Assembly: GCA_005239175.1 (NCBI GenBank)
Contig: ML241294.1
Span: forward strand, 631,275-695,274
Reading direction: 5' to 3'
Origin: a halophilic archaeon SHRA6
GTDB lineage: Archaea; Halobacteriota; Halobacteria; Halobacteriales; Haloferacaceae
DNA length: 64,000 nucleotides
The position numbers and the translations under genes are program-made. The notes beneath the pieces are model-generated. The model made no database searches, was not told where the DNA came from, and worked only from the letters and a program-made list of their open reading frames with translations. Shown one piece after another: positions 24,733-60,241 of this stretch; the first letter of the stretch is position 1, and the number at the start of each line of letters is the position of its first letter.

Positions 24733-24805
24733 GGGCGCGTAGCTCAGTGGACAGAGTCCTTGGTTCCGGACCAAGATGCCGCGGGTTCAAATCCCGTCGC
24801 GCCCG
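24733..24805 (+). tRNA. tRNA-Arg (anticodon CCG)
   Basis: A complete cloverleaf: acceptor GGGCGCG pairs with CGCGCCC (24798-24804) and G is the discriminator base; the D arm lies in gctcagtggacagagt; the anticodon stem is cttgg/ccaag with loop ttccgga, giving anticodon CCG; the T arm is gcggg-ttcaaat-cccgt. No CCA is encoded. No intron is seen. It lies at the boundary between GC-rich core DNA and the AT-richer island. Confidence 0.95.
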
Positions 24806-47151: not shown

Positions 47152-50106
47152 CTATGTATATTCTACCTCTTTTTCACTATAATCTGCAATTCCCTTTCGT
47201 ACTCGGTGTGATCGGCATCGAATAATATATTCTGACTCGATATTTGGTACAGAATCAGAAGATGCTACAATCTCTGGTGGGAAATAGTATATACAATCTG
47301 ACTTAAGGTCTTCACGCGTACGGATTTCAATTCGCTTTTTGATTCCGCGAGTAAACAAATGGATAGTATACGCCCCGTATTCGTTTCTTCCGATTACCTT
47401 GCCTAAAACAGGTATCTCCAATGCTGTTTCACGGTAGATGCTTTCTATATCTGATTTTATCTCCTCAAAATCTTCCTTTGATAAGCGATTAATATTATTA
47501 TGATGAAGATCATTTCGGACATCGACAAGGTCTCCGTCTTTTGAAGCCACAGTCAGGGCTTCATAGTTTACCTGAGACAGAAGTTCACGGACAGTTTCAA
47601 TCCAAGGTAGTTTATCGAATGCCGAGTTATTCAGGAACGTAGCCAATAGACCTAATGCTGGTCCTTCAGATGAATCACTAACTCTAGATTGCCAGTTTTC
47701 ACCGTATTGCAAGTAACCGTAGTATTCGGCGATGAACTGTAGATACTGTTCTAAACTAGCGGTTAACGTATCTCCTTGATCTTTGTAATTCTCCGCTTCA
47801 ATTTTGCTGGCTTCTGCTTTCTCAACCTCATAGTACTGGTCCAAGGTAAATATCGGTACCATCTCTTTCCACCGTTGATCGAGTTGGATATCCGACCATC
47901 CATGGCGTTCTACTACTTGATCCACTTGATCCGGTTTCAACACATCACTTAATGAGAGTTCGATCAACGAGCTTGAGATATCATCCATGCCGTCAAATTT
48001 CTGCAATCGCTGAGCCGCTAAAATATGGATAAATACAGGCCGGTAGTCGTGGCCATAACTAACGTGCAGGTCATTATCGGTTGCTAATGATATCCCATCT
48101 AATTTATCCAATACCTGGCCAATATCGGATTTCGATCCGTTCTCGAACGTCTCTAGTTCATCAAGTAGTAATTCTAAGTACTGAATCTCTTCTCCGACAA
48201 TACCCCAGCTTATTTCAATCTGTGAAAGATTCTGTCTTGCCTGTTCGAAATCCCACTCTAAGATAGTTTGCTTCGATCGGCAGATTGTGGCCCGAGCCTC
48301 GTGGAACTTGCTGAAGCTATTCTCTTCATCGATGTTATTTGCAATAGCTTCGTGATTATTGGCCGCATCTTCGAATTCTCCGTTCTGCTCTGATAGGGCT
48401 GCATCAATAGCACGGCGTCGATTATCAAGGAATTTTGCTTCGTGCTTGTGGCCAATAGCATAGTACTGCGATACTGCTTGGCCGAAGTGCCTAACCGCCT
48501 CTTGGTAATCTTGCAATTGCAAATGATGGTTCCCTTCTGCCTCTAAATACATCGCCCTCAATTGATTTTCTACATCCTCTTTTTCTGCTTCGTTTTCATT
48601 TGATTGATAGTAATCTAACTGCTGTACGATCGGAATCGCTTCTTCGCTCAGACGGTCAGCGGCTTCAGAAAGGCGGTTTCCTTCGTACAACTGTTTCGTA
48701 ACTGATTGATAGTAATTAACAAGCGAATTTGAGAGTCGAGTAAAATGTATATCACCATGACTGATGTGTTCGTCAAGTGATTCAGTGACTGCCAGTCCAA
48801 AATGGTCGGCAGCCTTCTGATATTGTTCAGTCCGGAGAAATCGGAGTCCGCGCAAGTAATTGTAGTAGTGTCGGGATGTTCGAGCAAAGTTGGGTTGATC
48901 TAATTCACGATGGATCGAGATCTGGGCCTTGTTGATAGCTTCTGTTGAAGCGAGTGAATAATCTCTCTCAGAAATTATCGAATCGAAGTATAACTGAGCA
49001 GCTTGGAAAAACTCGCTTCTACGCGAATCTAGTGCTGTCAGTAGTAGACTCTGACTTCGCTGTAATTTTTCCTCGTCACTAGCTTGTTCGGCCTCATCAA
49101 ACAGAGTTTCTATATCTTTTTCTATCGGAGGGGGACCTAAGGCTTCAAGAATGCGTTTCGCACGGATATAGTCCTGTTCAAGAATTGACTTTGCAAATAG
49201 GACATTTTTATCCTCCTCTGTCAATTCTTCTTTCAGATGAATGCTGACATCGAATGTCTGCTCCAATTTCCATAGCAAATCAATTGGGTCAGTACGTTGC
49301 GTATCGTTGTCAAGAAGCTTCTCAAATGCTGTCTTGACTAATTCTTCGGGTTGTAAAGATGGAACTCTAGAGAGAGTTTGGGTTGTATGAGTAAACTGAA
49401 CAATCTCATTCCACGTCCGAAAAGTAAAATCAGCCGAGTCGGTTTGGTTAATTAACTCCTCAGAAAAATGTCGTGTCAAATTTTCTTTGTCAGAATGATG
49501 CTCGTAAGTCTCAATTGATTGCTTGCACAAATCAATCAAGTAAAACACTTCCCAAGCGGGCAACCACCGCGTTACTTCGTTAATGAGTTTACCGATAGCT
49601 TCAGTATCTTGATTCGGGTTTAGTGTGGTACGAACTTCACTCAAAGTTTCATCAAACGTTGGTCCATAATCAGTTTCAACCGGGTCTTCGGCTTCCTGTG
49701 GCACCCGCCGACGGCTTGGTAGTAGATTTTGACTCCACTCAAAAATCCGATATGGCGGACCATACATCTCAAATGTTGCATCAGACAAATCATCATTAGA
49801 GTAGAATACGCTCACATAAAAATTCAAAGCAGTTCCTTCAGAAAAATATAGATCAAGTGGTATCGGAGAGTTTAGTTCTGAATCATTTTCTAATCGAATC
49901 TTCAACGGTGAAATAGCGAGTTTATCAATCGGTTTTATTTCTAACTCAATTGGGGTAAAATCCGGGTTTATATCCACCTCTATTTCCGCTGTCGCCGATC
50001 GTTTCCCTTTGGGCACTTTCTTAAACGTTGAAGCCTCAGCAGGGTTTATCCGTGTGGTAAATTGCAATTCATCCCGCTTGATTTCAATCTGATTTTCAAA
50101 TTCCAT
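47152..50106 (-). CDS. Large TPR-like helical-repeat protein with HEPN-like motif
   Basis: A 984-residue protein. The first 130 residues are beta-rich and acidic. The middle (about 330-720) has TPR-like helix pairs, for example FLRTEQYQKAADHFGLAVTE and LQLQDYQEAVRHFGQAVSQY. Near the C-terminus DVRNDLHHNNINRLSKEDFE gives an R-x4-H motif (Arg864, His869) in a helical setting, as in HEPN ribonucleases. TPR plus HEPN is a frequent design of abortive-infection proteins. The ATG at 50106 (MEFENQIEIKRDEL) is preferred over an upstream reading. Its codon use is AT-rich. It lies in reverse orientation between the two direct repeats. Confidence 0.72.
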   Translation of the reverse strand: MEFENQIEIKRDELQFTTRINPAEASTFKKVPKGKRSATAEIEVDINPDFTPIELEIKPIDKLAISPLKIRLENDSELNSPIPLDLYFSEGTALNFYVSVFYSNDDLSDATFEMYGPPYRIFEWSQNLLPSRRRVPQEAEDPVETDYGPTFDETLSEVRTTLNPNQDTEAIGKLINEVTRWLPAWEVFYLIDLCKQSIETYEHHSDKENLTRHFSEELINQTDSADFTFRTWNEIVQFTHTTQTLSRVPSLQPEELVKTAFEKLLDNDTQRTDPIDLLWKLEQTFDVSIHLKEELTEEDKNVLFAKSILEQDYIRAKRILEALGPPPIEKDIETLFDEAEQASDEEKLQRSQSLLLTALDSRRSEFFQAAQLYFDSIISERDYSLASTEAINKAQISIHRELDQPNFARTSRHYYNYLRGLRFLRTEQYQKAADHFGLAVTESLDEHISHGDIHFTRLSNSLVNYYQSVTKQLYEGNRLSEAADRLSEEAIPIVQQLDYYQSNENEAEKEDVENQLRAMYLEAEGNHHLQLQDYQEAVRHFGQAVSQYYAIGHKHEAKFLDNRRRAIDAALSEQNGEFEDAANNHEAIANNIDEENSFSKFHEARATICRSKQTILEWDFEQARQNLSQIEISWGIVGEEIQYLELLLDELETFENGSKSDIGQVLDKLDGISLATDNDLHVSYGHDYRPVFIHILAAQRLQKFDGMDDISSSLIELSLSDVLKPDQVDQVVERHGWSDIQLDQRWKEMVPIFTLDQYYEVEKAEASKIEAENYKDQGDTLTASLEQYLQFIAEYYGYLQYGENWQSRVSDSSEGPALGLLATFLNNSAFDKLPWIETVRELLSQVNYEALTVASKDGDLVDVRNDLHHNNINRLSKEDFEEIKSDIESIYRETALEIPVLGKVIGRNEYGAYTIHLFTRGIKKRIEIRTREDLKSDCIYYFPPEIVASSDSVPNIESEYIIRCRSHRVRKGIADYSEKEVEYT

Positions 50107-50188
50107 AGCTCCAAGTATTCTGTGTTTATATACTGTGCTTGTTATTGACCCACACGCTAAATAGCCTTTTGGGATCAAATTCGACGGG

Positions 50189-59651: not shown

Positions 59652-59746
59652 AAAAATTGATGTCGTCCCACAATCCCCTGAGAATTTCAACAAAGCCCTC
59701 CGGGTATGCTCGCAACTGTTTTGAAAATAGCACGATATTTCGTTCT

Positions 59747-60241
59747 ATGGCCCATCCACAACCAGCATTCGACTTCCTGACCTCACTTCCTGTAGATGCT
59801 CGTCTTGATGAGTCAGTTTTTATCGACTGGTTTGCGATAGAAGGGATTGATGCTGAGAAAGGAGATAATATCGAAGACCACCCTGAAGTGTGGAATCATT
59901 TGGAACTGCCAACAGCTTTAGCCGAGCTTTCAGCTGATGATTACGCGAGTGTACAACCTTTCTCTGGCAGGATCAATCTAAATGCGTTTGCGATCGGTCT
60001 CGGACTAGACCACGTAAGTTATCAACCGGAAGTGTTCGCTGGGGTTGTATATGAGCCTACAAAATATGATGCAACAATCTTTGTTTTTTATGATGGAATT
60101 CTCATCAGCGTAGGTGAGGAAGATAGTGAATCTCTCGGAGCGCTCAAACACACAAAATCTAAAATAGAATCTCTTGGACTTGATGTTGATGGAATGTTTG
60201 AGAAGGATATTCAGACAGGTCAAGTTTCAGATTTCATTTAG
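59747..60241 (+). CDS. TBP C-terminal-repeat-like protein
   Basis: A 164-residue protein. Residues about 74-150 match the second repeat of archaeal TATA-binding protein: RINLNAFAIGLGLDHVSYQP, EVFAGVVYEPTKYDATIFVF, YDGILISVGEEDSESLGALK, then SKIESLGL. The first repeat is missing; residues 1-73 are unlike TBP. The TBP phenylalanines and the turn SSGK are partly altered (FYDG), so TATA binding may be lost. It could bind a transcription factor in competition with TBP, or act as a dimer. The ATG at 59747 is used; a TTG further upstream is unlikely. Confidence 0.75.
   Translation: MAHPQPAFDFLTSLPVDARLDESVFIDWFAIEGIDAEKGDNIEDHPEVWNHLELPTALAELSADDYASVQPFSGRINLNAFAIGLGLDHVSYQPEVFAGVVYEPTKYDATIFVFYDGILISVGEEDSESLGALKHTKSKIESLGLDVDGMFEKDIQTGQVSDFI

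Follow-up and report, generated by a model that had tools for sequence, protein, structure and literature searches.

A single-lobe TATA-binding protein variant in a haloarchaeal island and its relatives in defence operons

The TATA-binding protein (TBP) normally marks gene starts. A low-GC, defence-rich island in a salt-loving archaeon carries a gene for the second half of TBP alone, here called half-TBP. The gene was found in a stretch of 64,000 nucleotides (the window). A tRNA-Arg(ccg) gene at window positions 24733-24805 forms the sharp left edge of the island. Directly past it, GC content falls from ~0.62 to 0.42-0.54 and, except for a ~4-kb stretch at 0.6, stays low to C2:724000, the end of the sequence read. 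This GC profile bears out the original prediction that the gene resides in an island. A flanking repeat of the tRNA-Arg end was sought in C2:690000-709999, and no copy of at least 12 bases was found. The island encodes UvrD/AddA-like helicase-nucleases, PLD proteins, an Mrr nuclease, and HNH proteins. The window also encodes a 1008-aa protein (47152-50178, minus strand) with weak HEAT-like/RPN7-like Pfam matches and none in PADLOC. The upstream neighbour of half-TBP encodes a PH-domain protein, and no recognised defence operon surrounds the window copy.

A divergent two-repeat TBP lies just past the window end (L010:5461-6018, minus strand; C2:695460-696017), with half-TBP on one side of it and genes for a PLD-Snf2 helicase and a type IIG enzyme on the other. 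Its first repeat scores 40 bits and its second 86. Another divergent two-repeat TBP adjoins hsdM in genome G066 (L015:1255-1803), and the viruses HRTV-9 and HJTV-2 (L178; L177) carry two more: that of HRTV-9 adjoins a type IIG enzyme and that of HJTV-2 is close to an N4-cytosine methyltransferase. In other words, a link between TBPs and modification genes recurs. The host genome (G000) encodes six two-repeat TFBs and two canonical TBPs. Two of its short open frames (C1:550704-550904 and C1:174091-174321; 128 and 104 aa) contain a single TFB repeat and are possibly half-TFBs.

Table 1. Features of the half-TBP gene (window positions)
Feature	Position	Strand	Basis
Half-TBP gene (family A), 164 aa	59747..60241	+	Translation; Pfam TBP; full-length relatives; codon-position pattern
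Candidate TATA-like promoter element TTTGAAAATA	59720..59729	+	~20-27 bp before ATG; sequence reading only
N-terminal domain, residues 1-64, HPQPAFD...DHPEVWNH	59747..59938	+	No known family; conserved in three family-A members
Single TBP repeat, residues 65-145	59939..60181	+	Pfam, NCBIfam, AlphaFold2 model, structure matches
Stirrup YQPEVFAGVVY, residues 92-102, with intercalating Phe F97	60020..60052	+	TFB-contact position of TBP C-lobe; alignment
C-terminal tail strand, residues 155-164 (IQTGQVSDFI region)	60209..60238	+	Tail conserved in families A and B

The true start of the gene is, by comparison with its relatives, the ATG at 59747 and not an upstream TTG at 59657, because both full-length relatives begin with M[GE]HPQPAFD. 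The transcript may be leaderless. Half-TBP is judged to be a real gene because it has full-length relatives (49-52% identity) and because third codon positions are far more diverged: codon positions 1, 2 and 3 of the window gene and its relative in Halorientalis persicus are 68, 73 and 32% identical. Half-TBPs are under purifying selection, and dN/dS is ~0.2 among the copies linked to HerA operons. That the gene is a decaying TBP fragment without function is highly improbable. It does descend from the TBP family, and frame-broken TBPs occur: single-repeat ORFs in genome G499 look like frame-broken ordinary TBPs and were rejected as half-TBPs. The conservation pattern, however, speaks strongly against decay, since strong third-position divergence and the low dN/dS are joined by relatives from three families that are intact and full-length and share a conserved N-terminal domain and tail.

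The original prediction described a close match to the second TBP repeat, and Pfam, NCBIfam and profile comparison agree on this, at scores well beyond chance. The Pfam TBP family (PF00352) matches residues 73-129 at 29.2 bits (E 8.6e-7), above its gathering cut-off of 22.9 bits. The NCBIfam TBP match (E 9.5e-13) covers model positions 110-184 of 186, which is the second repeat. The best NCBIfam TBP models align within positions 106-186, again the second repeat only, and fall short of their curated cut-offs (best 48 bits vs 288 required). TBPs in the PDB match at E ~5e-6, with residues 90-156 aligned to TBP 36-103. A profile of the C-terminal halves of family A, the half-TBPs with an N-terminal domain (n=3), aligns with haloarchaeal TBP repeat 2 at 99% probability (E 3.9e-19) and more weakly with repeat 1 (94%, E 1.5e-7).

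The first repeat had been described as replaced by 73 unrelated residues. These residues are indeed unrelated, but the unrelated part measures ~64 residues instead, because the first strand of the repeat begins at about residue 66. Pfam has no match to residues 1-72 at E<=10, and comparison of the N-terminal part with the TBP repeats gave hhalign probabilities of 0.06% and 3% and negative HMM scores. Furthermore, YxPExFPG motifs are spaced 93 residues apart in 56 of 57 two-repeat TBPs and 91 residues precede Y92 in half-TBP, too few for a complete first repeat. A hidden, diverged first repeat in residues 1-73 was ruled out by profile comparison, motif spacing and the predicted structure, in which the N-terminus is modelled at low confidence. 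The protein lacks the two-repeat saddle of TBP and contains exactly one TBP domain in a stand-alone chain, as do single-TBP-domain archaeal proteins. It is a TBP variant with one lobe, and that lobe is related to the second repeat, the one that binds TFB.

An AlphaFold2 model built from a 26-sequence alignment has a mean pLDDT of 81; a model from two sequences alone (pLDDT 43) was set aside. The TBP lobe is predicted confidently (S1 66-75, H1 78-85, further strands to 123, H2 126-142), unlike the N-terminal domain, which is modelled as short helices up to residue 59 with pLDDT mostly 48-69. The motif NLNAFAIGLGL occupies residues 77-87, ahead of the stirrup. The top structural matches by both Foldseek and VIA-align are TBPs (Z up to 12.8 over ~93 residues, rmsd ~2), and the VIA-align rows span residues 59-162 of the model only. 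Residues 65-160 align with residues 13-105 of Pyrococcus woesei TBP from the TBP-TFB-DNA complex. This span takes in one lobe and, judging by its length, also S1', the first strand of the next lobe, which puts the tail probably at S1'. The model contains an extra strand at 156-159. Thus, the C-terminal tail strand probably stands in place of S1' of the missing lobe and, to judge from the alignment ranges, probably caps the edge where two lobes join.

Nine half-TBPs were compared with the columns conserved in TBP repeat 2 (yeast numbering), which include the positions that contact DNA in TBP structures. All nine retain the helix-1 core NLNA..IGLGL, the stirrup Y, P, E and F, and Y195. The S1 Asn, Lys211 (the Lys of SGK), Thr215 and Gly216 are each kept in 0/9, and Arg196 (the Arg after YR) in 1/9. 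The window protein has D, A, E, a gap and S at the repeat-2 Asn, Val, Arg, Lys and Thr contacts. The expectation that key DNA-contact residues differ therefore held across the group, with the S1 Asn, Arg, Lys and Thr largely gone. The intercalating phenylalanines are kept: F190 of the stirrup in 9/9 and F207 at L5.1 in 8/9. Two further positions of the C-lobe, C.L3.2 and C.L3.4, contact TFB/TFIIB and are not conserved in the lobes of bacteria, which have no TFB (PMC7221094). C.L3.4 is E in every half-TBP and C.L3.2 is acidic in eight; the window protein has Q at C.L3.2 and E at C.L3.4. In net charge, half-TBPs and TBP repeat 2 could not be told apart.

Full TBP is a pseudo-dimer. One possibility, an improbable one, is that two copies of half-TBP pair via S1 and that the rebuilt saddle binds its own promoter element and activates island genes. 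The pseudo-dimeric build of TBP and the retention of fold and phenylalanines would suit such a mini-TBP. However, the dimer edge looks capped because the tail strand appears at the S1' position in the model, and key S1/S5 contacts to DNA are lost.

Half-TBPs fall into two families, both rare: 316 genomes of two taxonomic families, searched with both profiles, contain two family-A and six family-B genes. Family A comprises the window protein and full-length relatives from two other haloarchaeal families, one in a genome of the same genus group as Halobacterium hubeiense (G080; 49% identity to the window protein) and one in Halorientalis persicus (G515; 52%). HPQPAFD is invariant and DHPE.W nearly so in the N-terminal domain of the three members. 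Family B (G520, G445, G292, G521, G523, G438) is a short form of 132-138 aa without the N-terminal domain and with ~35 residues ahead of the repeat. The C-terminal tail is conserved across both families. One tree grouped them (94/87); with fewer rows, an AU test left a single origin neither shown nor rejected. A tree test of kinship with the TBP paralogue TbpC likewise decided neither way (AU p 0.21). A second scan of genome contigs found Halorientalis persicus alone, and viral contigs, phages and plasmids yielded no close relative covering the whole protein, the matches examined being two-repeat TBPs. Matches to the N-terminal domain in G193 (E 4e-4) and G166 (E 4e-3) fall among metabolic genes and were put down to chance. 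In genome G016, one protein (L026:1159-1869, minus strand) consists of a single TBP repeat followed by a double zinc ribbon. The family-A islands of the host and Halorientalis persicus share a three-gene RAMP-like cluster (L010:16103-19292 and L126:3-2511; 43-55% identity, one member weakly Cmr3-like), which is not adjacent to half-TBP.

The short-form half-TBPs are linked to defence operons. In G520, the gene starts 102 bp after sngC in the order sngA, sngB, sngC, half-TBP, HNH protein, calcineurin-like phosphoesterase (Mre11-like) and a Rad50-like gene; PADLOC identifies sngA, sngB and sngC at E 3.8e-83, 6e-172 and 3.8e-266. In G445, half-TBP and sngA-sngB-sngC share a strand, and half-TBP lies upstream, with 166 bp between it and sngA. 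The three sng genes form Shango, which experiments in Pseudomonas have shown to be an antiphage system (PMC10250203). SngB is present in 4 of 316 genomes, and two of these four Shango loci carry a half-TBP; the other two do not. With random placement, at least two such coincidences among six genes have P ~1e-8, a value that ignores the clustering of genes in defence islands. The genome of the window has no SngB match at E<=1e-80, and its half-TBP is not next to a Shango locus. The remaining four short forms (G292, G521, G523, G438) come last in a rad50-nurA-X-herA operon, with 50 bp between herA and half-TBP in G292, and an Mre11-like gene lies upstream where the sequence reaches. These four count as about one event because the copies are 92-93% identical where compared. 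In family A, the Halorientalis persicus gene lies upstream of a 2.8-kaa DUF4011 helicase (PADLOC PDC-S37). In the literature searched, which included few subscription papers, half-TBPs are not described from Shango or HerA loci. The protein had been called new. That does not stand as worded, as relatives exist and there are earlier reports of single-TBP-domain archaeal proteins; the form with the N-terminal domain appears new, as does the defence linkage.

A role in maintaining a plasmid or other element, as a partition or autoregulation partner, is distinctly improbable. It would fit G080, where parA is followed on a 121-kb contig by a 130-aa ORF and then, as third gene, half-TBP (4-bp overlap, then 24-bp gap). 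However, no parA was seen beside the window or Halorientalis persicus copies.

What could a lone second lobe do? The presence of relatives in antiviral defence operons points to the recruitment of one half of a basic transcription factor to control or assist such loci. Our preferred reading, held tentatively, is that half-TBP is not a TATA binder but a TFB-directed decoy or adaptor that would modulate defence or mobile loci; its TFB binding and regulatory effect are what we infer. Half-TBP would not bind a TATA box in the manner of TBP and would retain the stirrup that TFB grips. It would then act on a TFB, one of the six two-repeat TFBs of the host, and transcription of the defence or mobile locus carrying it would be damped or redirected. 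This reading draws on the single second-type repeat, the kept TFB-contact E, the lost DNA contacts, the conserved N-terminal domain and tail, selection, defence context, and the host complement of six TFBs and two TBPs. The residue pattern is also consistent with the earlier suggestion of a transcription modulator or anti-TBP factor. Against the decoy or adaptor reading stand the Q at C.L3.2 in the window protein, the position of the window copy outside a recognised defence operon and of the G080 copy after parA, and the retention of both intercalating phenylalanines, which hints at some nucleic-acid contact.

That contact is central to a serious rival, in itself rather unlikely: half-TBP may be a nucleic-acid-binding accessory subunit of defence machinery, whose lobe uses its phenylalanines to dock on duplex DNA or DNA/RNA hybrids, as the lobe of RNase HIII does, and aids substrate recognition by a helicase or nuclease effector. 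The near-universal phenylalanines, the short forms in Shango and HerA-NurA operons, and the fusion to a double zinc ribbon in G016 favour this. Likewise, a single lobe of RNase HIII binds DNA/RNA duplex (PMC7221094), the RnlA/RNase LS antiphage toxins contain TBP-like domains (PMC3710099), and TBPs occur in TOTE/TALON conflict systems (PMC12458937). However, the other DNA-contact residues are lost, and half-TBP appears dispensable for the core Shango system because only two of four loci carry one.

More broadly, it is possible, if doubtful, that the TFB-binding half of TBP has been repurposed in haloarchaea and serves Shango, Mre11-Rad50-NurA-HerA and other antiviral systems as a small, mobile accessory that holds TFB or marks foreign DNA. 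If true, this would link the basal transcription machinery to antiviral defence in archaea. TBP is thought to have originated by duplication of a single lobe, and we know of no established role for stand-alone TBP lobes in archaea. With its natural, conserved lone lobe, the TFB stirrup in place and most DNA contacts gone, half-TBP offers a direct test of what one lobe can do, and its family can serve as a marker in the hunt for further defence loci.

Half-TBP shares with archaeal TBP (PF00352) the sequence and fold of the second repeat, the phenylalanines and the stirrup. It differs in having one lobe instead of two, in lacking the S1 Asn, Arg, Lys and Thr contacts, and in its extra N-terminal domain and C-terminal strand. 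Single-TBP-domain ('monopartite') archaeal proteins were reportedly described by Brindefalk et al. 2013; by that account, they resemble half-TBP in having one stand-alone TBP domain, and we know of no defence linkage for them. The haloarchaeal TbpC group is a TBP paralogue with two lobes, one without DNA-binding residues (PMC4230888). TbpC and half-TBP are alike as TBP variants in which one lobe has lost these residues, but TbpC keeps two lobes, with the phenylalanines of its N-lobe lost, whereas the N-lobe of half-TBP is wholly absent. The lobes of RNase HIII and RnlA are also single and carry an aromatic residue at L5.1; unlike half-TBP, they are bacterial, lie within nucleases and lack the TFB glutamates (PMC7221094). 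TOTE/TALON systems resemble half-TBP in employing TBP proteins in defence loci, and their TBP partners are TPR-CSD/OB proteins (PMC12458937).
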